From Cupriavidus cauae (lineage in GTDB: Bacteria; Pseudomonadota; Gammaproteobacteria; Burkholderiales; Burkholderiaceae), in contig NZ_VWRN01000030.1 in assembly GCF_008632125.1 (NCBI RefSeq), forward strand, positions 1 to 64,000: a stretch of 64,000 bases of DNA. Reading direction: 5' to 3'. Numbering within the stretch: position 1 is the first letter of the stretch; every line of letters starts with the position of its first letter. Below are positions 2,699 through 64,000 of the stretch, in pieces. Below the pieces are notes generated by a model that saw only the letters and a program-made list of their open reading frames with translations, had not been told where the DNA came from and searched no databases. The position numbers were made by a program, and so were the translations under genes.

Positions 2699-2745
2699 CG
2701 TCGCTCGCTCTTGGTCGCCCTTGGTCGCTCTTGGTCGCCCGCAAT
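2699..2745. repeat. Imperfect short tandem repeat in the spacer between convergent genes
   Basis: The spacer between metC and the convergent Bug gene contains repeated 'ctcttggtcgccc' variants (about 12-13 bp, three to four copies). It is one of many unrelated short arrays found in spacers of this window. No gene is seen here. Confidence 0.7.
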
Positions 2746-2750
2746 CGCGC

Positions 2751-3752
2751 TCAATCCCCCTTGTACCCCGAGGTCCGGACGATGGGCGTCCAATGTTCGC
2801 TCAGGCGCTTCCTGCGTTCGACCACCTGTGCCGGCGTCGAGCCTGGCTGCGGCTCGTATCCGATCGCACGAATGCGTGCCTGCACGTCGGGCTGGGCGAG
2901 CACGGCCCGCATGGCCGTGTTCCAGCGCGCGATCTGCGCGGGCGGCGTACCGGCCGGCGCGTACAGCGCATAACCGGAACTGGCCAGCAGCGACGGGTAA
3001 CCCTGTTCGCCAAAGGTCGGCACATCGGGAAGCTGGCTGCTGCGCTGCTTGCCCGATACGGCCAGCACGCGCACCTTGCCGGCGCGGTGCTGCTCGACGA
3101 AGACGCCGAGCCCGTCGATCGCCGAGCCGATCTGGTTGCCCACCAGATTGGTGACCATGGCGGGCCCGCCCTGGAACGGCACGATCGACATGTCGACGCG
3201 GGTCTGGCGAGTGAAATCGAAGGCGAGGAAGTGCAACACCGATCCGAGTCCCGATACGCCCAGCGTGGCGGCGGCGGGATTCGCGTGGGCCGCCTTGACG
3301 TAGTCTGCCAGCGTCCGGTAAGGCGAACTTCCGCTGACCGCGATGCCATAGTCGAGCGCAGCCACCTCGGTGATCGGCGCGAAGTCCTTGTCGCGGTCGT
3401 ACCGCAGATTGCGGTAGACCAGCGGTGCGATGACCATCGTGTCGAACAGCGTCATCAGCACCGTATTGCCATCGGGCGCCGCCTGCTTCAACGTTTCGGC
3501 GGCTACCCGGGTGCTGGCGCCGGGGCGGTTTTCCACGATCACCGGCTGCTTCAGTTGGTCCTTCAGCCGGTCGACCAGCACGCGCGCCATCGCGTCGGCC
3601 GCGCCACCGGCGGGAAACGGAACGATAAAGCGGGCCGGCGCCTCGGCACGGGCCTGTCCCGGCGAACCCAAACCCAGGATGCAGCCCGCGGCCAGCGCGG
3701 AAATGGTGCCAATGGCGCGACGGCGCCCCGCTCGTGTTGCATTGCTCGACAT
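2751..3752 (-). CDS. Bug-family periplasmic solute receptor (orphan)
   Basis: A 333-residue receptor with a twin-arginine-like N-terminus ('RAGRRRAIGTISALAAGC') and cleavage near 'ARAEAPA'. The mature start 'RFIVPFPAGGAADAMARVL' and 'RPGASTRVAAETLKQAAPDGNT' are standard Bug landmarks, as is the late 'LYAPAGTPPAQIARWNTAMRAVL'. Length is normal. No transporter membrane genes adjoin it. It diverges from the flavin oxidase gene that follows, across a spacer of low-complexity 'cgtgtcgtgt' repeats, so the two may be linked functionally but this is inference. Ligand unknown. Confidence 0.9.
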   Translation of the reverse strand: MSSNATRAGRRRAIGTISALAAGCILGLGSPGQARAEAPARFIVPFPAGGAADAMARVLVDRLKDQLKQPVIVENRPGASTRVAAETLKQAAPDGNTVLMTLFDTMVIAPLVYRNLRYDRDKDFAPITEVAALDYGIAVSGSSPYRTLADYVKAAHANPAAATLGVSGLGSVLHFLAFDFTRQTRVDMSIVPFQGGPAMVTNLVGNQIGSAIDGLGVFVEQHRAGKVRVLAVSGKQRSSQLPDVPTFGEQGYPSLLASSGYALYAPAGTPPAQIARWNTAMRAVLAQPDVQARIRAIGYEPQPGSTPAQVVERRKRLSEHWTPIVRTSGYKGD

Positions 3753-3765
3753 GCCTGGTCTCCCC

Positions 3766-3826
3766 TGTCGTGTCTCGTGTGCTCGTGTGTCGTGTGTCGT
3801 GTTCTCGCGTGCTGGTGTGCTCGTGC
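3766..3826. repeat. Low-complexity 'tcgtgtgt' tandem repeat upstream of the Bug gene
   Basis: Repeats of 'cgtgtcgtgt' and 'gctcgtgtgt' fill the 5' leader region just before the start of the minus-strand Bug gene. They occupy the place where a promoter or ribosome site would be expected. No further element is recognised. Confidence 0.65.
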
Positions 3827-3976
3827 CCTGCGGCGACGCCAGGTCATCATGGTCAAGCCCGGCGGGAATGTCGAATCACGGTTATGAATGCGCCATCACG
3901 AATCCGAAATGGCGGGACGGCGAGGCGGTGCCGCATGATGGCGAGGCGTATTTCCGCCGACTCATCGTCCCGACCC

Positions 3977-11067: not shown

Positions 11068-12570
11068 ATGTCCCAGATGTCCACCACCGAATCCACCCTC
11101 TCCCCCGCTCCCAGCGGCCTGCCCGCGCTGGAAGCCCGCCTGCGCCAGGACCTCGCCTGGCTCGACCTGCCCGCCAAGCCCTGGGTACCGCCGCGCCAGT
11201 TCGACGGCGCGCCGGTGCTCGACGTCGCCATCATCGGCGGCGGCATGGCCGGCCTCGCGGCCAGCGCGACGCTGAAGCATCTGGGCATCCAGGCCCGCAT
11301 CTTCGACCGCGCGCCGGCCGGTTTCGAAGGGCCGTGGGCGACCACCGCGCGCATGGAGACCCTGCGCTCGCCCAAGCAGCTGACCGGCCCGGCGCTGGGC
11401 CTGCCGGCCCTGACCTTCCGCGCCTGGTACGAGGCGCAGTTCGGCACGGCGGCCTGGGACGCGCTCGACAAGATTCCGCGCCTGCAATGGATGGACTATC
11501 TGCGCTGGTACCGGCAGGTGCTCGATCTGGACGTCGCCAACGAGCACACCGTCGACACCGTGGTGCCGCGCGCCGACGGCCTGGTCGAGCTGCGCATGAC
11601 GACGCCCGCCGGTCCGCTGCGCGTGATGGCGCGGCGCGTGGTGCTGGCCACCGGGCGCGACGGCCTGGGCGGCGCACTGCTGCCGGCCTTCGCGCAGGAC
11701 CTGCCGCGCCATCTGTGGGCGCACTCGTCCGATCCGATGGATTACCGCGTGCTGCGCGGCAAGCGCGTCGGCGTGGTCGGCGCCGGCGCATCGGCGATGG
11801 ACAGCGCCGCCACCGCGCTGGAGGCGGGCGCGGCCAGCGTCGACCTGCTGATCCGCCGCGCCGAGATTCCGCGCATCAACAAGAGCAAGGGCTCGGGCAA
11901 TCCCGGCCTGACGCACGGCCACTACGGGCTGCCCGACCAGTGGAAATGGCGGCTGCGCCATTACATCAACAGCGAACAGGTGCCGCCGCCGCGCGGCAGC
12001 ACGCTGCGCGTCTCGCGCCACGACAATGCGCGCTTCCATGTCGGCTGCCCGATCGAGCGAATTGAGGTCCACAGCGACGTCCGCAGCGACGTCAGCGGCG
12101 ACACGCTGCATGTGCACACCGCCAAGGGACTGTTCGAGCTCGACTTCCTGCTGCTGTCGACGGGGTTCCGCGTCGATTTCGGTGCGCGTCCGGAGTTCTC
12201 CGTCATCGCGCCGCAGATACGCCTGTGGCGCGACCGCTTCCAGCCGCCCGCCGGCCAGGACGATCAGGAACTGAGCGATTCGCCCGACCTCGGCCCGGTG
12301 TTCGAGTTCCAGGAGAAGACGCCCGGCGCCTGCCCCGGCCTGTCGCGCGTGCATTGCTTCTGCTATCCGGCCGCGCTGTCGCACGGCACGATCTCCGGCG
12401 ATATCCCGGCGATCAGCGACGGCGCGCGCCGGCTGGGCCAGGGCATCGCCGCGCTGCTGTACCAGGAAGACGTCGAGACGCATTTCGCCGCGCTGCAGGC
12501 CTATGCCGAGCCGGAGCTGTATGGCGACGAATGGACGCCGGCGCCGCCGCCTGCGCAGCCCGGCCGATGA
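11068..12570 (+). CDS. FAD/NAD(P)-dependent monooxygenase-like oxidoreductase
   Basis: A 500-residue two-dinucleotide flavoprotein. The FAD motif 'VAIIGGGMAGLAASATL' is at about residues 53-69, and a second Rossmann motif 'RVGVVGAGASAMDSAATAL' near 230-250 is expected to bind NAD(P)H. This pattern matches flavin-containing and Baeyer-Villiger-type monooxygenases, although the exact FMO fingerprint is not evident, so the substrate is not assignable. 'PKQLTGPALGLPALTFRAWY' and 'WATTARMETLRSPK' fit a subfamily seen beside CMD/AhpD proteins. The gene lies 12 bp after the LysR gene. Its stop falls in a 12-bp repeat array that separates it from the CMD/AhpD gene. Confidence 0.8.
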   Translation: MSQMSTTESTLSPAPSGLPALEARLRQDLAWLDLPAKPWVPPRQFDGAPVLDVAIIGGGMAGLAASATLKHLGIQARIFDRAPAGFEGPWATTARMETLRSPKQLTGPALGLPALTFRAWYEAQFGTAAWDALDKIPRLQWMDYLRWYRQVLDLDVANEHTVDTVVPRADGLVELRMTTPAGPLRVMARRVVLATGRDGLGGALLPAFAQDLPRHLWAHSSDPMDYRVLRGKRVGVVGAGASAMDSAATALEAGAASVDLLIRRAEIPRINKSKGSGNPGLTHGHYGLPDQWKWRLRHYINSEQVPPPRGSTLRVSRHDNARFHVGCPIERIEVHSDVRSDVSGDTLHVHTAKGLFELDFLLLSTGFRVDFGARPEFSVIAPQIRLWRDRFQPPAGQDDQELSDSPDLGPVFEFQEKTPGACPGLSRVHCFCYPAALSHGTISGDIPAISDGARRLGQGIAALLYQEDVETHFAALQAYAEPELYGDEWTPAPPPAQPGR

Positions 12571-12712
12571 ATGGGCCGATGAATGGGCCACTGAAAGGCC
12601 CAATGCATGGACCGATGAATCGGCCAATGAGCCTGTGCGTGCCGCCCTGCTCCGCTGATCGCCCATCTGATCGCGCATCTGATCGCTCATCTGACCAGTT
12701 ACCTGACCGCTG
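12564..12712. repeat. Two 12-bp tandem repeat arrays between the monooxygenase and CMD genes
   Basis: From 12564 to about 12632 the unit is close to 'cgatgaatgggc' (about five copies, decaying). From 12656 to 12712 a different 12-bp unit near 'tgatcgcgcatc' repeats about five times. The first array overlaps the stop codon of the monooxygenase gene. Its unit resembles the minus-strand reading of the array at 32031-32099. Confidence 0.8.
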
Positions 12713-13898: not shown

Positions 13899-13932
13899 GC
13901 GCGGATTGGAGCGGGGTTGCCCTCTCCCCCAG

Positions 13933-13958
13933 CCCCTCTCCCGCAAGCGGGAGAGGGG
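13933..13958. repeat. REP-like palindrome, CCCCTCTCCCGC-AA-GCGGGAGAGGGG
   Basis: A perfect 12-bp stem with a 2-base loop between convergent genes. The same core occurs at 14056-14079 and 36396-36421. With the 14056 copy it forms a paired element flanking about 100 bp, like bacterial interspersed mosaic elements, and could terminate transcripts from both sides. Confidence 0.8.
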
Positions 13959-14055
13959 AGCAACAGCGCGCGCAAGCAAGGGGCGGCGTATTCTCCCTCG
14001 CCCCAAGCGGAAGCGGCGAGCAACCAATCGCGTGAGCAAAGGCTGGTGGTGTCCT

Positions 14056-14079
14056 CCCTCTCCCGCTTGCGGGAGAGGG
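14056..14079. repeat. REP-like palindrome, second copy (CCCTCTCCCGC-TT-GCGGGAGAGGG)
   Basis: A perfect 11-bp stem with TT loop, 97 bp after the first copy. The loop bases are complementary to those of the first copy, so the two sit in opposite orientation. Both lie between the stops of the CMD gene and ftsK. Confidence 0.8.
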
Positions 14080-14147
14080 CCGGGGAGAGGGCACACAGCG
14101 CTCGCATGACCGCGATCGCCTGACCCCGGCAACATCAATCCAAACCC

Positions 14148-17100
14148 CTACTCCTGCCCCCCGGGCGCCAGCACGTCCCGCGCGCCATTGCGCCCCATCG
14201 GCGAAACCAGTCCCGCCACTTCCATCTGTTCGATCAGCCGCGCCGCGCGGTTGTAGCCGATGCGCAGATGGCGCTGCACCGCCGAGATCGACGCGCGGCG
14301 CGATGTGAGCACGAAGGCCGCGGCCTCGTCGTACAGCGGATCGGCCTCGGCGTCGCCGCCGGGCCCGTCGCCGAACAGGTCGCCGCCGCCGGCCTCGGCC
14401 GGGTCGGGCGCCAGGATCGCGTCGTCGTAGTCCGGCTCGCCGAACTGCTTCCAGTGCTCGACCACGCGATGGACTTCGTCGTCGCCGGCGAAGGCCCCGT
14501 GCACGCGTTGCGGATAGCCGGTGCCCGGCGGCAGGAACAGCATGTCGCCCTGCCCCAGCAGGCTTTCCGCGCCCATCTGGTCCAGGATCGTGCGCGAGTC
14601 GATCTTCGACGAGACCTGGAAGGCCACGCGCGTCGGGATGTTGGCCTTGATCAGGCCGGTGATCACGTCGACCGACGGACGCTGCGTGGCCAGGATCAGA
14701 TGGATGCCGGCCGCGCGCGCCTTCTGTGCCAGCCGCGCGATCAGTTCCTCGATCTTCTTGCCGGCCACCATCATCAGGTCGGCCAGCTCGTCGATCACCA
14801 CCACGATCAGCGGCAGCGTCGACAGCGGCTCGGGCGCGTCCGGGGTCAGCGAGAACGGATTGCGGACCTTGTCGCCCGCGGCCTCCGCGGCGCGGATCTT
14901 CTGGTTGTAGCCGGCCAGATTGCGCACGCCCAGCGCCGACATCAGCCGGTAGCGCTTCTCCATCTCGCCGACACACCAGTTCAGCGCGTGCGCGGCCTGC
15001 TTCATGTCGGTGACCACCGGCGCCAGCAGATGCGGAATGCCCTCGTAGACGGACAGCTCCAGCATCTTCGGATCGATCATGATCATCCGCACATCGTCCG
15101 GCGTGGCCTTGTACAGCATCGACAGGATCATCGCGTTGATCGCAACCGACTTGCCGGAGCCGGTGGTGCCGGCCACCAGCAGGTGCGGGGCGCGCGCCAG
15201 GTCGGTGACCACCGGATTGCCGGTGATGTCCTTGCCCATCGCCAGCACCAGCCGCGACGCATGTGACTGGAACGACGAGGCTTCGACGATCTCGGACAGG
15301 CGGATCATCTCGCGGCGGGCGTTGGGCAATTCGAGACCCATGCAGGTCTTGCCCGGAATGGTCTCGACCACGCGGATCGAGCTGACACCCAGCGCGCGCG
15401 CCAGATCCTTCATCAGCCCGACCACCTGCGCGCCACGCACGCCCATCGCGGGCTCGACCTCGAAGCGCGTGATGACCGGACCGGCCGAGGCGCCGACCAC
15501 GGACACCGGCACCTTGAACTCGGCCAGGCGCTGTGCGATCAGCTCGCCGGTTTCGGCCAGATGCTGCTCGGAAACCTGCTCGGCATGTTCGACCGCCGGT
15601 TCGAGCAGATCGATGCCGGGCAGGCGGTAGTCGACGATGCGGGGCGGTGGCGGCGGGGCGATCGGCGCAGCCGGGGCGATGGCCGCGGCGGCCGCGGCGG
15701 GCTTCGCCACGGCATTGGCGCCGGGCGGCTGCGATGCCGCGTCGAGCGGCACCGCGCGGCCGACCACGGCCGGCAGCACGATGCGGGGCTTTTGGGCCAG
15801 GGGTGGCGTGGGGGCGGTCGTTTCGGCCGAATCCGTCGTTTCGGCTGCTTCGATCGTTGTCGTTGCTTCCGTTGCTCCGGCCCCGTCGGTTGTGTCGGTT
15901 GTGTCGGTTGTGTCGGTTGTGTCGGTTGCGTCGGTTGTTGCCGTGGGTTCGGCTGCTGCGGTGGCATCCGCGGCCGATTCCTCCCATGGCGGCTCCCACG
16001 CTGCCGTGGGTGTCGCCACGGTCGCCGGCTCCGGCTCCGGCTCGGGCTCCGGCCCGGGCTCGGGCTCGTATATGGCTACGTCGTCAGCCGCGGGCCCGCT
16101 CTCCGGCTGTCCTTGCTCCGCGCCTGCCAGCGCGCGCAACTCGGCCAGCAAGGCCTGCGCCTCGGCGCGGATCGCCGCGTAGGCCGCCGTCTGTTGCGCG
16201 TCGGCGAGCTCGGACTCGGTCGGGTGAGTTTCGGCGGGCCCGGATTCGGTCGAGTGAGTGTCGGCGAGCTCGGCTTCGGTCGGGAGAGATTCGGCTGACG
16301 TGGCCGTCTGTTCGGCTACGGCCGGGGCTGCGGCTGCGGCACCGCTTGGCGCGGTGGCGCCCTGCTCCGCGACCGGCGCGGCCGGGGAAGGCGTCGCTAC
16401 GCTGGCGCCATTCGTGGGCGCGGCGCCCGTAGCCCTCGCCTGCGGCTGCGCTTCGGGCAGCGTCGTGATCGCGCTGCGCAAACCCAGTTGCGGCTGATGG
16501 AAGGGGCTGGCGACGACGGTGGCACGCAATGGCCCGCGCGATGGCGCGGAGGCAGCGGAGAATCCCGAGGCGGAAGATGTCGACGAAGCGGACGAGGACC
16601 ACGAGGCGGAGGCCGTCGAAGCGGTCGCGGCCATCGGCGCGGCGCCTGCCGACCGCGATGGCGCCGAAGGGGCCGCAGGGGTAGAACGGACCGGACCCGC
16701 GGTCCTGCCCGGCGCGGCGCTTTGCACTTGCGATGCCGGCGCGGAAGGCGCGGGTCGAGCCGGTCGAGCCGGTTGAGCGGTCCGGGTCGCCTGCGCCGGC
16801 TGCAGCCAGATCTCGCCGGGCTGCGGCGGCGATACGCGCGTGCGCGGCGGCGGTTGCCACGCCGGCGCGCGCCGTGCCGATACCGCTTCGATGCCCTTGT
16901 GGCGGGCCGTGGGCCGCCGGGCGCTGTCGTCGACCGGCGTCCAGCGCGTCGCCACGGGGGCAGGCATGGAGGCTTCGCGCACCGGCCGCGAGGCGGCCGG
17001 CATCGCGTCATCGGTCGCGTCGGCGGCAGCGGCATGGCGCCGCGGCTTGCGCGCGAACAGGCTGTGCCACGTCTCGCCGAACACCATCGGCGCGGCCAGC

Positions 17101-17405
17101 GCCAGCACGCCAAGCATCAGCAGCAGCGCACCGGTCCAGCCGAACAGGTCGGCCGCGATGCCGGCCACCCCTGCCCCGGCGGCGCCGCCGGAGGACGCGG
17201 TGGGCTCCACGTCGGACGAGGCCGACGCACTGGCCGTCAGCGCTTCGAGCGCCGCGCTCGCGCACAGCGTCAGCGCACTGCCGAGCCAGACGCGCAGCGT
17301 GCCAGGCCCGGAAAACACCGGCTGTCCCGCCAGCATGCGCGCCACCATGCGCCATGCCAGCGGCAATAGCCAGAAGGTCGACAATCCGAACCAGCCCAAA
17401 CCCAT
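14148..17405 (-). CDS. ftsK: DNA translocase FtsK with short N-terminal membrane domain
   Basis: A 1085-residue septal DNA pump that segregates chromosome termini. The motor carries Walker A '[15 protein letters not shown]' (Lys752), Walker B '[16 protein letters not shown]' (Asp872) and the C-terminal gamma DNA-reading domain '[23 protein letters not shown]'. Residues ~120-600 are a Pro/Ala/Glu/Thr linker with a 'TDT' run encoded by a 9-bp DNA repeat. The membrane part is short: about three hydrophobic segments rather than four, with TM1 apparently missing. The frame continues only 24 codons upstream, as non-membrane sequence, before the DoxX gene. Either a short natural form or a truncated one; other FtsK copies may exist elsewhere. 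Confidence 0.9.
15886..15940. repeat. 9-bp tandem repeat inside the ftsK linker
   Basis: About six copies of 'gtcggttgt' (minus-strand codons for Thr-Thr-Asp) lie inside ftsK. Because the unit is a multiple of three, copy-number changes would lengthen or shorten the linker without breaking the frame. A second low-complexity tract (Glu-Pro repeats, 'ggctcc/ggctcg') lies at about 16024-16072. Confidence 0.8.
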
Positions 17406-17501
17406 ATCGCTACGCCATCGAAAAAACCACGGGCAGCGATTGTAGCGGTTATGCAGCCGGTGCCGGCCCTGCCACAAGCAAAAAACGCCGCGCGCGGCGC
17501 A

Positions 17502-25508: not shown

Positions 25509-26504
25509 TTATTTGCCGCGCTGGTATTGATCGACCGCGCGATTGTGTTCGGGAAGCGAGTTGGAGAAGTGGCTGGTGCCATCGCCGCGGGCGACGAAAT
25601 ACAGCGCGTCGGTCGGCGCCGGCGTGGTCGCCGCCGCCAGCGACGCCACGCCCGGCAAGGCGATCGGCGTGGGCGGCAGGCCGGTGCGGGTGTACGTATT
25701 GTACGGAGTGTCGGCCTGCAGATCGCGCTTGCGCAGGTTGCCGTCGAACATCTCGCCGATGCCGTAGATCACGGTCGGATCGGTCTGCAGCATCATGTTC
25801 TTGCGCAGCCGGTTGATGAAGACCGCGGCGATCATCGGCCGCTCGGCCGCCTGCCCGGTCTCCTTCTCGACGATCGACGCCATGATCAGCGCCTCGTAGG
25901 GCGTCTTGTACGGCAGGTCCGGCGAGCGCGCGTTCCAGGCCTCGTTCAGCCGCCGCTGCATCGCCCGATAGGCGTGCTTGTACAGCTCGACGTCGCTGCT
26001 GCCGCGCGCGAACAGGTAGGTATCCGGAAAGAACAGCCCCTCGGCCGAGGGCTCGGTGGCGCCGATCGCCTTCAGCAGCTCGGCCTCGCTCATGCCTTTG
26101 GTGTCGTGGCGCAGCGCGGGATGGGCGTCCACGGCGGCGCGCATCCGGCGGAATTCCCAGCCCTCGATCACCGTCAGCACATGGTGGTTGACCTCGCCGC
26201 GGGCGATGCGGCCGATTACCTGCAGCGGCGTGACGCCACTCTCGAACTGGTAGCCGCCGGCCTTCAGGCTGGCGTGGTTGCCGGTCAGCCGGGCCAGCAG
26301 CACGAACAGCCGGGCATCGATCGGCACGCCGCCCCTGGCCACCTGGCGGGCGACGCTCGGCACGCTGGAATTGGGTTTGATGATGACCTCGAGCGGCGAG
26401 CTGCGCAGCGTCAGCGGCTGGTTGGCCCACCAGGCGAATGCGCCGGCGGCGGCCAGCGCGAATGCCACGGCGGCCAGAACCAGCCGGGAAAGAAAACGTT
26501 TCAT
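25509..26504 (-). CDS. mltG: Endolytic murein transglycosylase
   Basis: A 331-residue YceG-family protein that cuts nascent glycan strands and sets their length. A single N-terminal membrane anchor ('[20 protein letters not shown]') is followed by a LysM-like region and the catalytic domain, with the glutamate in '[17 protein letters not shown]' and '[14 protein letters not shown]', '[17 protein letters not shown]'. The start at 26504 gives the family N-terminus MKRFLSRL. It is the first gene of the mltG-tmk-holB-GNAT-tatD-ankyrin run and is divergent from ygfZ. Confidence 0.95.
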
Positions 26505-26694
26505 CGACAAGCTTGGGTAAGTGCGGGTCTGAATGAGGGCCAAACTGCGGGGATAAACGCGAAGATAAGCGCGGATCTCTCGTGAATCGGGGCCGCCGGC
26601 CTGCCGGGCAGCGCGAAAACGGGCAAACGGCAGGAGTGGCAGGCTCAACAGGTGACCGAGAAGACGGCCGCCGGCCGCAATCACGGCAGACCCA

Positions 26695-26700
26695 TATAAT
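26695..26700 (+). promoter_or_regulatory. Consensus -10 hexamer TATAAT upstream of ygfZ
   Basis: A perfect TATAAT lies 114 bp before the ygfZ start in the 309-bp divergent region between mltG and ygfZ. No good -35 is seen at 16-18 bp, so this is a weak promoter call. The rest of the region shows no gene. Confidence 0.35.
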
Positions 26701-26813
26701 ACCGGGAGCCTTGTCCGGGGCCGCCGCTCACCGCGTCACAAGTTGTGACAGGCCCCGCACAAGCCATCCGCCAACCGTGCCGGCCTGAGCCGGCTTCGAA
26801 TCGAATTCCATCC

Positions 26814-27821
26814 ATGCACGCCCCGAATCCCGCCCGCGCCGCCCAGTTCGCCGCCCTGCGCCAGGACGGCGTCGTTTGCCGCCCCGCCGAGCTGGGCCTG
26901 ATCCGCGTGGCCGGCGATGACGCCGCCACCTTCCTGCATACCCAGCTCACCAATGCCGTCGAGGACCTGCCCGCCGGACAGGCCCGGCTGGCCGGCTACT
27001 GCTCGCCCAAGGGCCGCCTGCTGGCGACGCTGCTGATCTGGCGCGATGCCCAGGGCATCGCCATGCAGCTGTCGGCCGACCTGCAGCCGGCGATCCAGAA
27101 GCGGCTGTCGATGTTCGTGCTGCGCGCCAAGGCCAGACTGTCGGACCTGGGCGCCGAATCGGGCATCGTCGGGGTCGCTGGCGCCAAGGGCGCCAGCGCG
27201 CTGTCCGCCGCCGGCCTGCCCGCGCCGGCCGAGCCCTGGACCACCGCCAGCGCCGGCGAGGCGACCGTGATCCGCCTGCCCGATGCCGACGGCGTGCCGC
27301 GCTGGCAGGTCGTGGCGCCGGCCGCGCAGGCCGATGCCGTGCAGCAAACGCTTGGCACCACGCTGCTGCCCGCCGATGCCGAGCTGTGGGACTGGCTGGA
27401 GATCCGCGCCGGCATCCCGCGCATCGTGGTCGCGACGCAGGAACAGTTCGTGCCGCAGATGATCAATTTCGAGCTGATCGGCGGCGTCAATTTCCGCAAG
27501 GGCTGCTATCCGGGCCAGGAAGTCGTCGCGCGCAGCCAGTATCGCGGCACACTCAAGCGCCGCATGTGGCTGGTCAGCGGCGAAGGCGAGACCCCGGACG
27601 CAGGCGCCGAAATCTATCGCGCCGACGATCCCGGCCAGCCGAGCGGCATGATCGTCAACGCCGCGCCCAAGCCCGATGGCGCCGGCTGGGACGCGCTGGC
27701 CGAACTGAAGATCGATGCGGCCGGCGCCAGCCTGCATTTGGGCCACGCCGAGGGGCTGGCGGTCACCGTGGGCGAGCTGCCCTACCCGGTGCCGCTGCTG
27801 GCCACCGATCCGGCCGCCTGA
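26814..27821 (+). CDS. ygfZ: Folate-binding protein YgfZ (iron-sulfur cluster assembly/repair)
   Basis: A 335-residue GcvT-like protein. The family signature 'FRKGCYPGQEVVARSQYRG' is present with the conserved cysteine at about Cys231, preceded by 'PQMINFELIGGVN'. The N-terminus has 'GLIRVAGDDAATFLHTQLTNAV'. YgfZ binds tetrahydrofolate and supports maturation or repair of some Fe-S enzymes. The ATG at 26814 matches the family; an ATG 23 codons earlier lacks support. It is followed by a repeat-filled spacer and the DUF4936 gene, a known neighbour pattern. Confidence 0.93.
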   Translation: MHAPNPARAAQFAALRQDGVVCRPAELGLIRVAGDDAATFLHTQLTNAVEDLPAGQARLAGYCSPKGRLLATLLIWRDAQGIAMQLSADLQPAIQKRLSMFVLRAKARLSDLGAESGIVGVAGAKGASALSAAGLPAPAEPWTTASAGEATVIRLPDADGVPRWQVVAPAAQADAVQQTLGTTLLPADAELWDWLEIRAGIPRIVVATQEQFVPQMINFELIGGVNFRKGCYPGQEVVARSQYRGTLKRRMWLVSGEGETPDAGAEIYRADDPGQPSGMIVNAAPKPDGAGWDALAELKIDAAGASLHLGHAEGLAVTVGELPYPVPLLATDPAA

Positions 27822-27851
27822 CGCCGCGTGAGGCCGGGCAGGCCGCAGCGT

Positions 27852-27968
27852 CCAACAGGTCCATCAATGGTCAATCAGCTCCATCAGGCCCATCAGGTGC
27901 ATCAGGCCCATCAGGTGCATCAGGCCCATCAGGTGCATCAGGTCCATCACGTCCATCGGGTCCGCAAG
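27852..27968. repeat. 18-bp tandem repeat between ygfZ and the DUF4936 gene
   Basis: Three exact copies of 'catcaggcccatcaggtg' (27882-27935), with degenerate 9-bp half-units on both sides. The array ends just before the Shine-Dalgarno AAGGAG of the next gene. Confidence 0.85.
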
Positions 27969-27988
27969 ATCCGCAAGGAGACGCCGCG

Positions 27989-28279
27989 ATGAGCGACCAC
28001 CTGTTCGTCTACTTCCGCGTGCGCGAGCACGAGGCCGCCGAGGCGCTGCCGCACTGGCACCGCTGGATGGCCACGGTGGCCGAAGCCACCGGGATCGGTG
28101 GTACGCTGATGCGCAGGCCCGAAACCCGCGCCGGCCTGCAGACCTGGATGGAGGCCTACGCCGACGTGCCACCGGCCTTCGATGCGACGCTCGACGGACT
28201 GTGGCGGCAAAGCGGTTTGCAGCACTGGCTCGAAGGCGAGCGCCAGGTCGAAAAGTTCGTCGACCTGGACCTGTTGTAG
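27989..28279 (+). CDS. Small protein of the DUF4936 family
   Basis: A 96-residue soluble protein, 'MSDHLFVYFRVREHEAAEALPHW', with aromatic and charged residues and no membrane or signal segment. It matches the small ferredoxin-like DUF4936 proteins found between ygfZ and NRDE genes in Burkholderiales; no function is established. AAGGAG lies eight bases before the ATG. The stop is 61 bp before the NRDE gene. Confidence 0.82.
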   Translation: MSDHLFVYFRVREHEAAEALPHWHRWMATVAEATGIGGTLMRRPETRAGLQTWMEAYADVPPAFDATLDGLWRQSGLQHWLEGERQVEKFVDLDLL

Positions 28280-28290
28280 CGCGGCGCCGC

Positions 28291-28317
28291 CTGCATCGAT
28301 GCACTGCACCGATGCAG
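28291..28317. other. Inverted repeat CTGCATCG-N11-CGATGCAG between two genes
   Basis: A perfect 8-bp dyad with an 11-bp spacer, 12 bp after the DUF4936 stop and 24 bp before the NRDE start. No U-tract follows. It may form an mRNA hairpin between co-transcribed genes or be a chance palindrome. Confidence 0.4.
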
Positions 28318-28340
28318 CGGCCCGCAACAAGGAATGGCTT

Positions 28341-29183
28341 ATGTGTTTGATCCTCGTCGCCTGGCAGGCCCACCCCGACTATGCGTTGGTGGTCGCGGCC
28401 AATCGCGATGAATTCTATGTCCGCCCGGCGGCGCCGGCGCACTGGTGGGACGATGCGCCCGAGGTGCTGGCCGGCCGGGACCAGGCGGACGTGATCGGCG
28501 AGCCCGGCACCTGGATGGGCGTGACCGCCGGCGGGCGCTTTGCCGCGCTGACCAATTACCGCGCGCCCTCCGAGAAGCGCACCGATGCGCGCTCGCGCGG
28601 CGAACTGGTGGCGGGCTTCCTGCGCGGCGAGTCGTCGCCGGAGCAATATGTCGGCGATCTCGCCCGTGGTGCCGGCATCCGCGGGCCTGGCGCCTACAAC
28701 GGCTTCAATCTGCTGGCGGGCGATCTGGATGCGCTGTGGTGGTACAGCAACCGCTCGCCCGACGGTGCGCCGCAGCGGCTCAAGCCCGGCCTGTACGGCC
28801 TGTCCAACGCGCTGCTCGACACGCCCTGGCCCAAGGTCCGCAGCCGCGTCGGCGCGCTGGCCGAGACGCTGGCCGCCGATACCGGCGCGCCCAATGCCAG
28901 CGTCGAGCCCTATCTGGCGCTCTTGGCCGATACCCGCCAGGCCTGCGATTTCGAATTGCCGCAGACGGGCGTCGCGCCCGAATGGGAAAAGCTGCTGTCG
29001 TCGGCCTTTATCCGCTCGCCCTCGTACGGCACACGCGCCAGCACCGTGCTGCGGGTGCGCCACGACGGCCGCTTCGACCTGAGCGAGCGCAGCTTCGATG
29101 CGGCGGGGCCGACCGGCGAGGTGTCGTACCGGGGCCAGATGAACGTCGCCAGCCGCGCCGGCACGATTCCGGCGCCACGCTGA
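28341..29183 (+). CDS. NRDE (TANGO2-like) family protein
   Basis: A 280-residue protein starting 'MCLILVAWQAHPDYALVVAANRDEFYVRPAAPAHWW', which includes the defining Asn-Arg-Asp-Glu motif and the N-terminal Cys2. 'GGRFAALTNYRAPSEK' and 'GPGAYNGFNLLAGD' follow the family. The Cys2 start suggests an Ntn-hydrolase-like fold; eukaryotic TANGO2 is linked to lipid or haem handling, but the bacterial role is unclear. AAGGA is seven bases before the ATG. Confidence 0.92.
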   Translation: MCLILVAWQAHPDYALVVAANRDEFYVRPAAPAHWWDDAPEVLAGRDQADVIGEPGTWMGVTAGGRFAALTNYRAPSEKRTDARSRGELVAGFLRGESSPEQYVGDLARGAGIRGPGAYNGFNLLAGDLDALWWYSNRSPDGAPQRLKPGLYGLSNALLDTPWPKVRSRVGALAETLAADTGAPNASVEPYLALLADTRQACDFELPQTGVAPEWEKLLSSAFIRSPSYGTRASTVLRVRHDGRFDLSERSFDAAGPTGEVSYRGQMNVASRAGTIPAPR

Positions 29184-29195
29184 CGCCTTGCGTCC

Positions 29196-29213
29196 TTCCC
29201 GCGCAGGCGGGAA
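29196..29213. repeat. REP-like palindrome TTCCCGC-GCAG-GCGGGAA
   Basis: A perfect 7-bp stem with a 4-base loop, in the spacer between the convergent NRDE and MFS genes. The motif resembles the short GC palindromes scattered through Burkholderiales genomes. It has no U-tract. Confidence 0.6.
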
Positions 29214-37384: not shown

Positions 37385-37487
37385 GGTCTCCTCTCTGTGG
37401 TTTGCCGTTGTCGTCCCGCCCGCCCCATGCGGACGCGGCGCCGGCCGTGCCGATGCACGCTCCGTGCCTGCGCGCGAATCGCCCGCC

Positions 37488-38390
37488 TCAGCCGCGCAGC
37501 GCCGCCACCAGCTCGTCCCGCACCTGCGGCTTGCCGGCGAACGGATCGCCGGGATTGCGCTGGCCGACGATGTCCTCGAAGCGCTGCTGCACCGGCGCCA
37601 GCGCGTGGGGATGCGAATAGATGTAGAAGCGCTGCTCGCGGATCGCGTCGAAGGTCATCCGCGCCACGTCCTCCGCGCTGACCTTGCCCGAGGTGACCGC
37701 CTTGTCCGACAGCGCCTGCGCGACCAGCTGCGAGCGCGTCGGCGGGGCCTCGTTGCTGAGGTCGGCCGGGCGATTGCGGTGCGACTGGTGAATGCCGGTC
37801 GGCACGAAATACGGGCACAGCAGCGAGCAATGCACCTGTTCGGTCACCAGCGCCAGGTCCTGATACAGCGACTCGGACAGCGACACCACCGCATGCTTGG
37901 AGACGTTGTAGATGCCCATCGCCGGCGGATTCAGCAGGCCGGCCATCGACGCTGTATTGACGATATGGCCCTCGTACGAGGCGTCGCGCGCGGCGGCCTC
38001 GAGCATCAGCGGCGTGAAGATGCGCACGCCGTGGATCACGCCGTGCAGGTTCACGCCCAGCACCCAGTCCCAGTCCTTCTGCGAGTTCTCCCAGACCAGG
38101 CCGCCGGCACCGACGCCGGCGTTGTTGAACAGCAGGTTGACCTCGCCGAAGGCCTCGATCGCGGCATCGGCCAGCGCCTGCACCTGCTCGGCCTTCGATA
38201 CGTCGACGCGCAGGCCGATCACGCGGGCGCCCTGCGTGCGCAGCTCCGCCACGGTGGCGTCGAGCGCGTCCTGCTGGACGTCGGCCAGCACCAGCCGCAT
38301 GCCCAGCGCCGCGCCGAGGCGCGCGAATTCCTTGCCGAATCCCGACGCGCCGCCGGTGATCACGGCCACTCTTTCCTGGAACTGCTTCAT
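37488..38390 (-). CDS. Short-chain dehydrogenase/reductase
   Basis: A 300-residue SDR with the NAD(P) motif 'AVITGGASGFGKEFARLG', 'LLFNNAGVGAGG' and the catalytic 'MGIYNVSKHAVVSLSESLYQ' (Tyr-x-x-x-Lys). The extended C-terminus with 'RFYIYSHP' is typical of a subfamily in Burkholderiales beta-oxidation clusters. GGAG is seven bases before the ATG. Substrate unknown; probably a hydroxy- or keto-intermediate. Confidence 0.92.
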   Translation of the reverse strand: MKQFQERVAVITGGASGFGKEFARLGAALGMRLVLADVQQDALDATVAELRTQGARVIGLRVDVSKAEQVQALADAAIEAFGEVNLLFNNAGVGAGGLVWENSQKDWDWVLGVNLHGVIHGVRIFTPLMLEAAARDASYEGHIVNTASMAGLLNPPAMGIYNVSKHAVVSLSESLYQDLALVTEQVHCSLLCPYFVPTGIHQSHRNRPADLSNEAPPTRSQLVAQALSDKAVTSGKVSAEDVARMTFDAIREQRFYIYSHPHALAPVQQRFEDIVGQRNPGDPFAGKPQVRDELVAALRG

Positions 38391-38496
38391 CGTGGTCTCC
38401 TTCTGGATGCCGGCGCGCTCCCGTTTCGGTGCGGTTTCCCGCTGGCCCGCTCTGCTGGCGGGCTTCCGCGCGCCGGTCTCTCCGGCCCTTCCTGCC

Positions 38497-39351
38497 TCAA
38501 TCGAGCAGGTCGGGCTGCTCCTTGACGATGCGCGCGTACAGCGGCTGGAACTGGAACCAGCCAGCCTGCGCGGTGCCGACGATCGAATACGCCTGGCGCG
38601 CGGCAGCGTCCGAGATCGTCTTCGGCGCGCCGCCGGTGCGCGCGGCGGCGGCCTCGGCCAGCAGCTGCACCTGGCACGAGCGCTCCATCGTGATGAACCA
38701 CCAGGCCGCCTCGTCGACCGTGCGGCCCACCGTCAGCAGCCCGTGGTTCTGCAGGATCACGGCCTTGTTGGGCCCCAGCGCATTGGCGATGCGCTGGCCT
38801 TCGTCAAGCTCCACCACCACGCCGCCGAAGTCGTCATAGACGGCATGGTCCTGGTAGAAGGCGCAGACGTCCTGCGTCAGCGGATCGAGCAGCCGGCCCA
38901 GGGTCGACCAGGCGCGCCCATAGGTGCTGTGCGAATGCGCGGCGGCGACCGCGTCCTCGCGCGTCTGGTGCACGCGCGAATGGATCGCGAAGGCGGCGGC
39001 GTTGACCGGATGATCGCCCTCCACCACGTTGCCGTGGTGATCGCAGCGGATCAGGTCCGATACCTTGACCTGGCTGAAATGCACGCCGAACGGATTGACC
39101 CAGAACGTATCGGTGAACTCGGGGTCGCGCGCGGTGATATGGCCGGCCACGCCCTCGTCGAAACCGAACTTCGAGAACAGCCGGAAGGCCGCCGCGAGCC
39201 GCTGCTTGCGATGCAGGCGCTCCTCGGCATGGGTCTCGAAGCGCGGCGGGCGCGGCAGCACGCGGTACTTCGCCTTGATTTCTTCCGGCAGATCGGCGCC
39301 GATCTCGTCGGCACGGCTGGCACGTTGCGGTGCCGGGATGGGAGCGTTCAT
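38497..39351 (-). CDS. Class II aldolase/adducin family protein
   Basis: A 284-residue zinc aldolase-like protein. 'FGFDEGVAGHITARDPEFTDTFWVNPFGVHFSQV' and metal histidines in 'AAAHSHSTYGRAW' and 'LQNHGLLTVGRTVDEAAW' match fuculose-aldolase/adducin relatives. Bacterial members of this branch are often decarboxylases or aldolases of unknown substrate. AGGAG precedes the start at 39351. The leader contains a 'gcggata' repeat. Confidence 0.92.
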   Translation of the reverse strand: MNAPIPAPQRASRADEIGADLPEEIKAKYRVLPRPPRFETHAEERLHRKQRLAAAFRLFSKFGFDEGVAGHITARDPEFTDTFWVNPFGVHFSQVKVSDLIRCDHHGNVVEGDHPVNAAAFAIHSRVHQTREDAVAAAHSHSTYGRAWSTLGRLLDPLTQDVCAFYQDHAVYDDFGGVVVELDEGQRIANALGPNKAVILQNHGLLTVGRTVDEAAWWFITMERSCQVQLLAEAAAARTGGAPKTISDAAARQAYSIVGTAQAGWFQFQPLYARIVKEQPDLLD

Positions 39352-39363
39352 CGCGGTCTCCTG

Positions 39364-39390
39364 CGGATAGCGGATAGCGGATAGCGGATA
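39364..39390. repeat. 7-bp repeat 'gcggata' x ~4 ahead of the aldolase gene
   Basis: A short direct array of 'gcggata' sits directly upstream of the Shine-Dalgarno of the class II aldolase gene. Confidence 0.7.
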
Positions 39391-39419
39391 TCGGGCAGCC
39401 GATAACCGGGGCCGGCCGA

Positions 39420-40430
39420 TCAGATCAGCTTGACCAGCTGCTTGCCGAAGTTCTTGCCCTTGAGCAGGCCCATGAAGGCCTCGGGCGCGCTCTCCAGCCC
39501 CTGCGCCACGCTCTCGCGGAACTTGAGCTTGCCCTGCGCCACCGCGCCGCCGAGCTCGGACAGCGCCTGCGGCCACACCTCCATGTGCTCGGAGACGATG
39601 AAGCCCTCGATCTTCAGGCGCGACACCAGGATCAGCTGCGGATTCTTCAGGGGCAGCGGCTCGCCGTCATAGCCGGCGATCATGCCGCAGACCGCGATGC
39701 GGCCGAACGGATTCATGCGCGACAGCACGGCGTCGAGGATCTCGCCGCCGACGTTCTCGAAGTAGCCGTCGACGCCCTGCGGCGTGGCTTCCTTCAGCAT
39801 CGTGTACAGCGCCTTGGGATCGGATGCCGCCTTGTAGTCGACGCAGGCATCGAAGCCCAGCTCGTTGACCACGTAGTCGCACTTCTCCTTGCCGCCGGCG
39901 ATGCCGACCGCGCGGCAGCCCGCCATCTTCGCCAGCTGCCCGACCACGCTGCCGACGGCGCCCGAGGCCGCGCTGACCACCACGGTCTCGCCGGCCTTCG
40001 GCGCGATGATGCGGTTCAGGCCGTACCAGGCGGTGACGCCGGGCATGCCGACCGCGCCCAGGTAGGCCGACAGCGGGATCCGGCTGGTGTCGACCTTCTG
40101 CATGCCGCTGCCGTCGCTGACGCCCATCTCCTGCCAGCCGAACATGCCCAGCACCTTGTCGCCGACCGCGTACTTCGGATTGCGCGAGGCCACCACCTCG
40201 CCGACGGTGCCGCCGATCATCACCTCGTTCAGCGGCTGCGGCGTCGCGTAGGACTTGCCTTCGTTCATGCGGCCGCGCATGTACGGGTCGAGCGACAGAT
40301 AGTGGTTGCGGACCAGCACCTGGCCGTCGGCCAGCTCCGGCACCGGCACCTGCTCGAGGCGGAAGTTGTCCGGCGAGACGGCGCCGCTGGGACGGGAGGC
40401 GAGGACGATGCGCTTGTAGGTATCGGACAT
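39420..40430 (-). CDS. NADP-dependent oxidoreductase, CurA / zinc-independent MDR type
   Basis: A 336-residue medium-chain reductase lacking catalytic zinc residues. 'VRNHYLSLDPYMRGRMNEGKSYATPQPLNEVMIGG' is diagnostic of the CurA/leukotriene B4 12-hydroxydehydrogenase group, and 'VVSAASGAVGSVVGQLAK' is the NADP loop. Members reduce alpha,beta-unsaturated carbonyls. AAGGA is eight bases before the ATG. In this neighbourhood it could reduce an enal or enone in the degradation route. Confidence 0.93.
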   Translation of the reverse strand: MSDTYKRIVLASRPSGAVSPDNFRLEQVPVPELADGQVLVRNHYLSLDPYMRGRMNEGKSYATPQPLNEVMIGGTVGEVVASRNPKYAVGDKVLGMFGWQEMGVSDGSGMQKVDTSRIPLSAYLGAVGMPGVTAWYGLNRIIAPKAGETVVVSAASGAVGSVVGQLAKMAGCRAVGIAGGKEKCDYVVNELGFDACVDYKAASDPKALYTMLKEATPQGVDGYFENVGGEILDAVLSRMNPFGRIAVCGMIAGYDGEPLPLKNPQLILVSRLKIEGFIVSEHMEVWPQALSELGGAVAQGKLKFRESVAQGLESAPEAFMGLLKGKNFGKQLVKLI

Positions 40431-46966: not shown

Positions 46967-47047
46967 TTGTTGCTCCTCAGTATTCTCGGTGTCTGGTGTG
47001 TCTCGATGTCTCGATGTCTCGGTGCCCGCGCCCTCGCGCGAGCCATG

Positions 47048-57226: not shown

Positions 57227-57565
57227 CGTCGACAATCACGCTCGCGCTGCCCGTTCATGCACTACCCCGGTGCACTGCGGGCGTGCCAGCGGGCGACATG
57301 ACGGGAAGACTGCCGGTGATGGCCGCGCCGCGATGGGAACCAGCGGGAATAAGCGGGTACAAGCGGGAACACCGGCCGCGGCGCCGCGGTCAGACCAGGG
57401 AAAATGCGGCGTGCAAGTACAATACTGCCAGCCATGTTGCACCTCAACATGTCGTTTTCCCTAGCCTGCAAGCGCACTTCCAGGCAGGCCACCGATTGCA
57501 GGCTGTTGCACCGCGCCGGTCCCAGCCCCTGCCCGCCCGGCGCGTGATGCCAAGGCCCTGATCTC
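57227..57565. other. Divergent spacer between the acyl-CoA ligase and selO
   Basis: About 340 bp with no supported gene. It contains 'gcgggaa(t/c)a' repeats at about 57351-57372 and a TACAAT at 57418-57423 that could be a selO -10, without a clear -35. Confidence 0.4.
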
Positions 57566-61734: not shown

Positions 61735-61834
61735 GGGGCCTTGGGCCTTGGGCCTTTGGCCTTTGGCCTTGGGCCTTGGGCCTTGGGCCTTGGGCCTTGG
61801 GGCCTTGGGGCCTTGGGGCCTTGGGGCCTTGCCG
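61735..61834. repeat. 7-8 bp 'ggccttg(g)' tandem array
   Basis: About 13 copies of 'gggcctt' with 7- or 8-bp spacing, beginning directly after the ppiC terminator and ending about 38 bp before the end of the DUF1439 gene. Open frames across it on both strands are artefacts of the unit. Confidence 0.9.
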
Positions 61835-61871
61835 CCCAATGCGGGCATTCGCCCCGCGCGATCTCCGCCCC

Positions 61872-62474
61872 CTACTTCGTCTCGATCTTCACCGCGATAC
61901 CGTCCTCCGTCACGGTGATCGCGCCGGGCTCGACCTGCTTGCCGTTGACCTGCAGTTCCTCGGGCTTGAAGGTGTGCAGCGGATAGTCCTTCAGCAGTTC
62001 CTGCGCCACCAGATTGCCCACCGCATTGAGCTGCGCGCTGTATTGGCCCGGCACGCCGTCGACCTGGACCTGCTCGACGGTCGGGTTGTCGAGCAGCACG
62101 GCACGCTTGACGGGGTCGTAGCGCAAGCCGCTGTTCAGGGCCAGCGTGCCATTGACCGGCGGCGCCGGCAGCAGGCTGTTGGTCAGTTGCGCGTCGACCT
62201 GCGTGGTGATCCGGTTGCCCACCGCATCGAGCGTCAGCCGCGGCCGGGTCAGCCGGACGTCGAGCACCTGGGCATAGCGCAGCGTCGCCGGAAAGCGGCC
62301 TTCGACGGCGCGCTGCAGCTCCTGCCTGGTGAAGGTGTATTCGCCGGTCCAGATGTTGTAGCCGGCAAGGGCCGCGCCGGACAGGACGCCAAGGCCCAGT
62401 GCCGCGGCGGCGGCCGTGGCCGCCAAGGGTCGCCGGATGCCCCGGCGGCGGCCATGCGAAGAGATCGAAGACAT
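61872..62474 (-). CDS. DUF1439 (YceB-like) envelope protein
   Basis: A 200-residue exported protein. A hydrophobic signal ('AATAAAAALGLGVLSGAALA') precedes 'YNIWTGEYTFTRQELQRAVEGRFPATLRY', typical of DUF1439. No lipobox cysteine is seen, unlike E. coli YceB, so it is secreted or anchored but not a lipoprotein. The ATG at 62474 is used; a GTG at 62495 is the alternative. Function unknown; the fold suggests lipid binding. Confidence 0.85.
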   Translation of the reverse strand: MSSISSHGRRRGIRRPLAATAAAAALGLGVLSGAALAGYNIWTGEYTFTRQELQRAVEGRFPATLRYAQVLDVRLTRPRLTLDAVGNRITTQVDAQLTNSLLPAPPVNGTLALNSGLRYDPVKRAVLLDNPTVEQVQVDGVPGQYSAQLNAVGNLVAQELLKDYPLHTFKPEELQVNGKQVEPGAITVTEDGIAVKIETK

Positions 62475-62556
62475 GCGCGATGCTGGAGTGGTCACCTCGG
62501 TCAGACCCGGGCGGCGTCCCGGCGTTCCACCATCGGCAAATCAGCGCCGTGGGCGC

Positions 62557-62757
62557 TCAGTAGTGCGGCGGGATTTCCTGCACCGATCCGTCGGCGGCGG
62601 TGCCGGTGGCCGCGGGCAGCTGCTGGTAGAGCGCCTGCATCTGCTCCTGCAGCAATTCGATCTGCCGCTGCTGCCTGGCGACGGTCAGGTTCAGCGTTTC
62701 CAGCAGGTCTTCCTGGAAGGCCAGCTTGACCTCCAACTCGGTGATTCGCGATTCCAT
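62557..62757 (-). CDS. slyX: SlyX-family protein
   Basis: A 66-residue coiled-coil protein: 'MESRITELEVKLAFQEDLLETLNLTVARQQRQIELLQEQMQALYQQL', ending 'EIPPHY' as in other SlyX proteins. The ATG at 62757 has GGAGG about five bases upstream; an upstream TTG is rejected. It precedes the DUF1439 gene on the same strand with an 82-bp spacer. Confidence 0.93.
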   Translation of the reverse strand: MESRITELEVKLAFQEDLLETLNLTVARQQRQIELLQEQMQALYQQLPAATGTAADGSVQEIPPHY

Positions 62758-63450
62758 GAGGTCCTCCAATGCCAGATGTCAGACATGCGCGCAGGCATGT
62801 GCCCGCGGGGCGCGCATTGTACCGGACCGGCGCACCGGTCCGGGGGCAAGCGCGGGCGGGTTGTCAGCACATCATAGAGCGTGTACGCTAGCGCGAGTCG
62901 TGCCGCGGACGGCATTCGATGTTCATCGACGGTTCGTCGATTGATAGTCGATTGATAGTCGATCCTACCCGCCGCCGGCGCACCGGCCGTCCCATGACGG
63001 TCGTGTGACGGTTTTCCACCCCCTTCGGTTCCATTTGGGTTCCATGACGCCTGTACGCCGCGCTTCCTCGATTGCAGATCCGGTCTTTCTGGCCGGTGGC
63101 ACGCGCGCGTCGGCACCTCCCCCTGTTTCTCCTGTCTGGTCGCCGCCGGCCGCTGTCGGGTCGCCGCCCGCTGCGGTCGTGGCTGGCGTAGCACCGCCGC
63201 GCGCTGTCGTGGCCGGTGTTGCACCGCCGCCGCGCGCCGTCGTCGCAGCGGTAGCCCCGCCGCCCGCGGCCGTCCTCGGCTGATCTCAGCCGACCCCCAG
63301 TCTTCCGTCTGACCGTGCGCGCCCGGCGCGCGCGAACGCCTTTGCTGCCTGCTCGATGCCGCGCATCTCGACGATGCCCGGCTCGCATTCGCCGCCGGCG
63401 TTCGCCCACGGTCGACCGAAGCCCGTCACACCCAATGACAGGTGAAACCG
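62758..63450. other. Repeat-rich gene-free region before the EamA transporter
   Basis: About 690 bp without a supported gene. It contains 'gtcgattgata' repeats (62936-62963) and 'gcaccgccgcgcgctgtcg' type repeats (about 63125-63277), which create a Pro/Ala/Val-rich open frame. No ribosome site supports translation of that frame. A promoter for the transporter is expected near the end but was not recognised. Confidence 0.5.
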
Positions 63451-64000
63451 ATGAACTTCCAAAGATTCGCGCATGCGGCGCGATCGACCTTGTCCCTGCT
63501 GTCCTTGTCCCTGCTGTCCTTGTCGGCGCTGTCGTCGGCGCTCTCGTCCCGACTGAGCTCGTCCCGACCGAGCTTGTCGCGGCTGACCTCGTCGCGGCTG
63601 ACCTCGTCCCGGCCCTCCTCCTCCCGACCGTCGCTGCGCTCGCGCGTCAGGCTGCCCGATGCCTGGGCCGCCCACGGCTCCACCGCGCTGTTCGTGCTGC
63701 TGTGGAGCAGCGGCGCGATCGTCGCCAAATGGGGCCTGGCCTATGCCTCGGCCTTTGCCTTCCTGACGCTGCGCTTCGTGCTGGCCTTCGGCGTGCTGCT
63801 GGCGATCGCCGCATGGCGGCGCCGCTGGCTGCCCGAGCCCGGGCAGCGCGCGCGGGTCGCGATGGTCGGGCTGCTGCTGACCGGCTGCTATTCGATCTGC
63901 TATCTGCTGGCGCTGGACCGCGGCGTCACGCCCGGCATGCTCGCCACGCTGCTCGGCGGCCAACCCATCCTGACGCTGCTGCTGACCGAGCGCCGCTTCT
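63451..64000 (+). CDS. EamA/DMT-type transporter, N-terminal part (runs off the window)
   Basis: The frame from ATG 63451 is open to the window edge (183 codons). From about residue 70 it reads as an EamA transporter: 'AWAAHGSTALFVLLWSSGAIVAKWGLAYASAFAFLTLRFVLAFGVLL', a basic loop, then 'VGLLLTGCYSICYLLALDRGVTPGMLATLLGGQPILTLLL'. The first ~70 residues are Ser/Leu/Arg repeats ('SLLSLSLLSLSALSSALSS', 'RLTSSRLTSSRPSS') encoded by short DNA repeats at 63494-63650, not expected in the family. A start further downstream cannot be ruled out, though no nearby ATG is visible. Substrate unknown. Confidence 0.85.
   Translation, partial: MNFQRFAHAARSTLSLLSLSLLSLSALSSALSSRLSSSRPSLSRLTSSRLTSSRPSSSRPSLRSRVRLPDAWAAHGSTALFVLLWSSGAIVAKWGLAYASAFAFLTLRFVLAFGVLLAIAAWRRRWLPEPGQRARVAMVGLLLTGCYSICYLLALDRGVTPGMLATLLGGQPILTLLLTERRF

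Follow-up and report, generated by a model that had tools for sequence, protein, structure and literature searches.

The 64,000-nucleotide stretch analysed here (the window) comprises positions 1 to 64,000 of contig NZ_VWRN01000030.1 in the Cupriavidus cauae assembly GCF_008632125.1, and short tandem arrays lie between, across the ends of and within its genes (Table 1). Arrays were called with Tandem Repeats Finder (TRF) and counted without overlap at a main cut-off score of at least 50 and a looser one of at least 40; a home-made codon model supplied the gene calls, and domain names come from Pfam, for which 35 window proteins were scanned. At the main cut-off TRF found 27 arrays, 15 of them scored as spacer (in 8.7 kb of spacer DNA) and 12 as coding, and at the looser one 44, including 21 in spacers. 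As the array at 27850–27963 was scored 82% coding owing to a 30-residue open reading frame (ORF) called inside it, the window is more fairly credited with 16 spacer arrays. The original prediction, made from the letters of the window alone, had named tandem repeats at 12 coordinates, and each of these falls inside a TRF array or within 25 bp of one; 11 of the 12 arrays score at least 50, and the array for coordinate 46981 (46999–47021) scores 46. The window arrays are short (longest 132 bp) and imperfect, many with less than 90% matches.

Table 1. Tandem arrays of the window, with their surroundings and their state in related genomes (G-numbers denote individual genomes)
Positions	Strand	Array	Surroundings	Related genomes	Basis
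2692–2760	+	Spacer; unit about 10 bp (TCGCTCTTGG) or 20 bp	Adjoins 3' end of gene 1486–2670	G011: diverged 19-bp array	TRF
3766–3825	+	Spacer; TCGTGTGC ×7.6		G011: 11-bp array of different sequence	TRF
12562–12630	+	GGCCAATGAATG ×5.8	Over stop codon (12568–12570) of gene 11068–12570	G010: related but shorter; none listed for G051, G011	TRF, sequence
12655–12694	+	Spacer; CTGATCGCCCAT ×3.3	Second array in the spacer of 12562–12630		TRF
15885–16295	-	Three in-frame arrays, periods 9, 18 and 30	FtsK gene 14148–17477, between membrane and alpha domains	Inter-domain stretch varies among sister genomes; G011: 6-bp array	TRF, Pfam
27850–27963	+	Spacer; GTCCATCAG ×12.4	GCV_T-domain gene and DUF4936 gene on either side	Absent from aligned G051 and G010 stretches; G011: decayed relative	TRF, Pfam
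30537–30603	+	Spacer; TTGCGGCTTGGTGCGGC ×3.2		G051: related 10-bp array	TRF
30638–30677	+	Spacer; CAAGGCAATCT ×3.6			TRF
31309–31440	+	Spacer; GGCGAGAT ×16.5; left edge imperfect, remainder uniform			TRF, sequence
32024–32115	+	Spacer; CCTTGCATCGGC ×7.6		Unrelated sequence in the three sisters	TRF
35698–35798	+	16/32-bp unit	From last codons of Fe-ADH gene across its stop (35711–35713)	G048: stop-codon region single copy; arrays in all four C. gilardii-group genomes, differing in length and sequence	TRF, Pfam
39363–39394	+	Spacer; GCGGATA ×4.6		G051: GCGGGTA array	TRF
46999–47021	+	Short spacer array; TGTCTCGA ×2.9		G051: differs by one 8-bp unit	TRF
57335–57371	+	Spacer; GGGAACAAGC ×3.7		G051: GGGTACAAGC ×5.7; G010, G011: about two copies	TRF
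61736–61831	+	Spacer; GGGCCTT ×13.1	Directly 3' of terminator-like hairpin and T-run		TRF; hairpin by eye
62936–62963	+	Spacer; GTCGATTGATA ×2.5		G051: longer array of TGTTCGTCGAT-type unit; G010: none	TRF
63488–63613	+	15-bp arrays; may be untranslated	Predicted N-terminal stretch of EamA-domain gene; start codon predicted, domain match begins only at residue 80	Aligned sister sequences differ	TRF, Pfam

Samples of the window's own genome, a 5.75-Mb draft in 74 contigs, covered 395 kb and were enlarged to 789 kb. Judged by its sequence, the window is a member of the C. gilardii group. Its TANGO2-family protein is 99% identical to the copies in C. gilardii USM5 (L002) and in the metagenome-assembled genome RH59_bin.035, and DNA identity to both is about 91–95% over most aligned pieces; in a C. 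gilardii paper (PMC12029693), USM5, named C. cauae there, and the type strain of C. gilardii have an average nucleotide identity of 90.6%. Three sister species, each represented by one genome (G010, G051 and G011), share 92–93% DNA identity with the own genome.

The arrays are far too numerous to be chance matches. Spacers of the 395-kb sample hold 105 arrays, equal to 144 per 100 kb of spacer and 8.9% of its bp, whereas three shuffles of these spacers that preserve dinucleotides hold 2.7 per 100 kb. The 789-kb sample has 151 coding arrays and 195 in spacers (123 per 100 kb, 7.3% of spacer bp). Per 100 kb of all DNA, a measure that does not depend on gene calls, we counted 44.2 arrays in the own genome, 28.9 in the three sisters, 11.9 in the three nearest outgroups, 15.3 in 41 other Cupriavidus genomes, 9.8 in 20 genomes of the family from outside the genus and 3.1 in five Ralstonia loci. 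The excess is thus a matter of degree across the genus, highest in the own genome. The original prediction, which equal density in shuffled or related genomes would have refuted, is not refuted: the shuffles are nearly array-free, and arrays are much rarer in the family's other genera. Other Cupriavidus do have them, at lower density.

Densities per 100 kb of spacer are harder to read. In the genomes of other genera the gene caller assigns 37% of the DNA to spacer, and spacer densities are therefore understated there. The first samples of 40–60 kb gave 84–121 spacer arrays per 100 kb in the sisters and 9–42 in the nearest outgroups, and longer stretches gave 38.6, 61.5 and 87.2 in the sisters and about 20 in two outgroups. 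An abrupt rise in density where the C. gilardii group branches off is therefore not a safe conclusion. The other 41 Cupriavidus genomes average 50, with single 20-kb samples ranging from 0 to 183. Long arrays also occur in G040 (L154 11286–11488, an 8-bp unit ×13.4 next to a 24-bp array) and in G055 (L173 9365–9461, an 8-bp unit ×12.1), so high density may have arisen repeatedly within the genus.

The arrays do not share units. The comparison of the 195 spacer arrays covered units of equal length from 9 bp upwards, and no pair in it reaches 85% likeness; a whole-genome search with the GGCGAGAT array at 31309 matched itself alone. A single dispersed element or repeat family (repetitive extragenic palindromes or bacterial interspersed mosaic elements, REP/BIME, or a family derived from insertion sequences) was therefore rejected, as the original prediction had maintained. 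A CRISPR (clustered regularly interspaced short palindromic repeats) array was rejected as well since the units abut without spacers, although cas genes were not searched for.

Orthologous spacers were mapped in the sisters through their flanking genes, and units were called alike under a generous rule (80% over the shorter unit, in any rotation). In G010, 87 of 135 spacers could be mapped; 27 of these hold an array in the own genome, and their G010 counterparts have no array in 19 cases, an alike unit in seven and another unit in one. The corresponding figures were 12, eight and one for 21 such spacers in G051 (79 spacers mapped), and four, three and seven for 14 in G011 (47 mapped). No array or a different unit was therefore found in 20/27, 13/21 and 11/14 orthologous spacers, respectively, and both copy number and unit vary between sister species. 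The clearest history is that of the spacer at 35714, with its single-copy state in G048 and its differing arrays in the C. gilardii group (Table 1). These spacers are not conserved, and with no units shared within the genome either, the local nature of the process is shown.

Arrays are most dense on the 3' side of genes and rarest before start codons. Periods divisible by three make up 142/151 of the coding arrays versus 91/195 of the spacer arrays (789 kb; Fisher p = 6e-23), the latter falling to 39/143 once periods 12, 24 and 36 are removed. Arrays occupy 25.2% of spacer bp between convergent genes, 11.1% between co-directional and 4.7% between divergent genes, and 32/68 convergent versus 23/81 divergent spacers carry one (p = 0.026). 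An array overlaps the stop codon in 29/579 genes and the start codon in 4/579 (p = 8e-6). Cover 3' of stops climbs from 8.8% in the first 10 bp to 20–24% at 30 to 100 bp, and cover 5' of starts rises from 1.4% to at most 9.7%. Within co-directional spacers of the own genome, 15.6% of the stop half versus 8.1% of the start half is in arrays; in other Cupriavidus the halves stand at 2.8% and 2.1%. In coding regions, 122 arrays spread across all ten deciles. The period rule, the gradient by spacer type and the asymmetry between stops and starts together give good support to the earlier suggestion that arrays are tolerated in spacers. The further suggestion that some arrays start at the neighbouring stop codon is correct for 12562–12630 (a TGA) and 35698–35798 (a TAA), but the stop is no general anchor, and such cases form the fringe of the excess on the 3' side.

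Sequence comparisons also caught what may be the birth of arrays. In array-free spacers of both compared genomes, 7/108 gaps of at least 4 bp duplicate their neighbouring sequence in tandem; each is 8–13 bp long, and for random segments the share is 1.9%. Among 149 exact tandem runs on a 238-kb contig of the own genome, six cases with fewer than 2.9 copies, three in spacers and three in coding DNA, had a sister exactly one unit shorter; an 11-bp case at 24798 lacks extra flanking homology. These are small numbers, and for most cases here too polarity is unproven.

Taken together, these data make it probable that the arrays are independent, locus-specific minisatellites that arise by local tandem duplication, expand, and are kept where selection spares them. 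A short piece of local DNA would most likely be duplicated in tandem, in a birth step that appears to copy about 8–13 bp at once, and the resulting array would then expand by slippage or unequal exchange. One such duplication process would act genome-wide, with purifying selection shaping which arrays remain, and the interior of an array would be renewed while its edges decay; the array at 31309–31440, with one imperfect edge and otherwise uniform units, looks as such renewal would predict. The slippage or expansion put forward in the original prediction is supported as an interpretation, though slippage itself we only infer.

Several points weigh against this reading. The gradient by spacer type could instead reflect where duplications arise. 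The home-made gene calls make spacers too long, worst outside the genus. The seven tandem gaps represent six loci, several of the pairs share the own genome, and their polarity is mostly unproven. With one genome per species, copy number was compared between species only. Finally, the same spacers hold arrays across species beyond expectation (odds ratios 8.0, 5.5 and 18.1; p = 0.003, 0.009 and 0.0001). Simple random birth would not lead one to expect this recurrence, except where tolerance varies from spacer to spacer or old arrays expand anew. The recurrence as such is compatible with re-expansion of decayed arrays, with tolerance or with local hot spots.

Hot spots are what one would expect if birth set the pattern, with transcription stress (colliding polymerases, supercoils, R-loops) duplicating DNA mainly in convergent spacers and on the 3' side of genes. 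Convergent spacers are indeed the richest, and a spacer with an array in one species tends to have one in others too, often built of a different unit. However, coding arrays lie in every decile and obey the frame rule, the stop-half excess in co-directional spacers requires no collision, and mean GC skew is alike in arrays and array-free spacers (-0.10 vs -0.08), so we consider this account unlikely. Considerably less likely still is that selection keeps the arrays for a regulatory or RNA function, as terminators, mRNA 3' structures or phase-variation switches. They do cluster 3' of genes, in terminator territory, array-bearing spacers do recur between species, and folding is somewhat stronger than in dinucleotide shuffles (mean z = -0.90 over 137 arrays, of which 25.5% lie below -2). 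Against the proper control, the shuffled unit repeated anew, there is no such advantage (mean z = -0.11 over 168 units, p = 0.39), no Rfam match reached the gathering score in the window, and neither sequence nor presence is conserved among the sisters. A promoter and terminator scan of 26000–40000 gave no excess over shuffles (2 vs 1.4 and 4 vs 4.7, respectively). Few arrays precede starts, where phase-variation switches would act; this cover of 1.4–9.7%, versus up to 23.5% after stops, together with the 142/151 coding periods that keep frame, led us to reject phase-variation (contingency) loci as a class, although single arrays may still act as switches.

Could the high density stem from a repair gene lost or gained, whether for mismatch repair, Ku end joining or an additional Y-family polymerase? 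Density varies strongly among species of the genus, as it would with mutators. MutS is nevertheless present and free of stops in 14/14 genomes, Ku is present in 56/60 Cupriavidus genomes including the low-density G012, G048 and G035, and the own genome has two Y-family matches versus two to four in others. Among the Ku-less genomes, G004 and G016 have three spacer arrays each in 20 kb and G014 has none; G047 was not sampled. Scored by presence rather than for point defects, these three families do not explain the density, and a repair-gene cause is a shade more improbable than an RNA function. The 56 genomes with Ku have one to four matches each. That the assembler made false copies is scarcely credible: the assembly is a 74-contig draft, yet similar arrays occur in separately assembled relatives, some with few long contigs, the window arrays are no longer than 132 bp, and the coding arrays keep frame.

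The lengths of the units offer a possible clue to how independently duplicated arrays begin. Spacer arrays of at least three copies in the own genome number 4, 18, 31, 11 and 8 at 10, 11, 12, 13 and 14 bp. Self-match runs scored without TRF at lags 11, 12 and 13 were found in 10, 29 and 10 spacers of a first set, and in 15, 26 and 9 of a second, where the 26 at lag 12 compare with 12 expected from neighbouring lags (Poisson p = 3e-4). By the same TRF-free measure the pooled other Cupriavidus gave 4, 23 and 7 spacers, and arrays of at least three copies in other Cupriavidus and sisters number 8, 12 and 1 at 11, 12 and 13 bp. Own-genome coding arrays of at least three copies number 12, 17, 10 and 6 at 9, 12, 15 and 18 bp. 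The 12-bp mode thus draws on own-genome spacers in two sets, pooled other-Cupriavidus spacers and own-genome coding arrays of at least three copies. It is weakened by the three sisters alone, which have no clear peak (5, 3, 5 and 1 spacers at lags 10, 11, 12 and 13), by the full set of coding arrays, in which periods 21, 15 and 12 are commonest (29, 24 and 23), and by other-Cupriavidus coding DNA, with 8 at lag 12 versus 24 at 9 and 39 at 15. Hidden coding was rejected as its source since spacer periods 9, 15 and 18 show no excess, and so was a single 12-bp element, as the listed period-12 arrays differ in sequence and the own genome holds no alike pair. Among the literature matches listed for such a preference, none contains the words '12-bp tandem'. 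We raise tentatively, and regard as rather doubtful, the more specific idea of a Cupriavidus process that favours steps of about 12 bp, close to one turn of DNA. It would duplicate unique sequence head-to-tail chromosome-wide with no need for a pre-existing repeat, be hottest near C. gilardii, and have alone filled about 7% of spacer DNA and grown protein repeats such as those of the FtsK linker.

Two further observations concern the window. At the spacer 31298–31493, USM5 is longer by about 1.6 kb and carries a 486-residue or 386-residue ORF, pointing to gene gain or loss next to the 8-bp array. A dispersed hairpin element, CCCTCTCCCGC-AAG-GCGGGAGAGGG, occurs at 13918–13963, 14056–14091 and 36390–36425, and its 46-bp copy at 13918 has matches in L004, L015 and L020 at non-collinear places.

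The arrays belong to a known kind, bacterial minisatellites or variable-number tandem repeats (VNTRs), with units of several bp arranged head-to-tail beyond chance. What is unusual is their high density, together with a 12-bp mode that recurred in a second sample. Among the matches listed, we found no account of such arrays in Cupriavidus in the openly accessible literature, and the word 'repeat' does not occur in the main text of the C. gilardii genome papers checked. The birth of minisatellites is hard to study where a genome has few; here a culturable genus offers hundreds of independent arrays, some at loci that are single-copy in relatives, and their birth, growth and decay could be traced locus by locus. 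If upheld in complete genomes, the 12-bp mode would be a physical clue to the maker of the first duplication.

Strain typing makes use of bacterial VNTR loci, the Ralstonia solanacearum complex being one example (PMC12366337, PMC4860299). The arrays described here resemble such loci in their short head-to-tail units and would be usable as strain-typing markers, although the five Ralstonia loci, with about 3 arrays per 100 kb, differ in density. The closest published case appears to be Burkholderia pseudomallei, for which the published analysis describes unusually many tandem arrays, 74.7% and 68.2% of them intergenic on the two chromosomes, with units mostly of 6–9 bp and densities of 70 and 102 arrays per Mb (PMC1853098, U'Ren et al. 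2007). Both genomes are array-rich, mostly in intergenic DNA, with coding units mostly multiples of three, whereas the mode here is 12 bp, with no alike pair among the compared units; the 442 arrays per Mb found here were obtained under different criteria and are not directly comparable. Archaeal Borg repeats are described as local, fast evolving and genome-specific, with unit lengths divisible by three in ORFs and in 14–38% of spacer cases (PMC9879509). The arrays of C. cauae are like them in forming locally, evolving fast, being genome-specific and having ORF periods in multiples of three. Borg repeats are, however, described as perfect and A-rich and are extrachromosomal, and with many window arrays below 90% matches a Borg-type identity was rejected; the arrays here are imperfect, G+C-rich and chromosomal.

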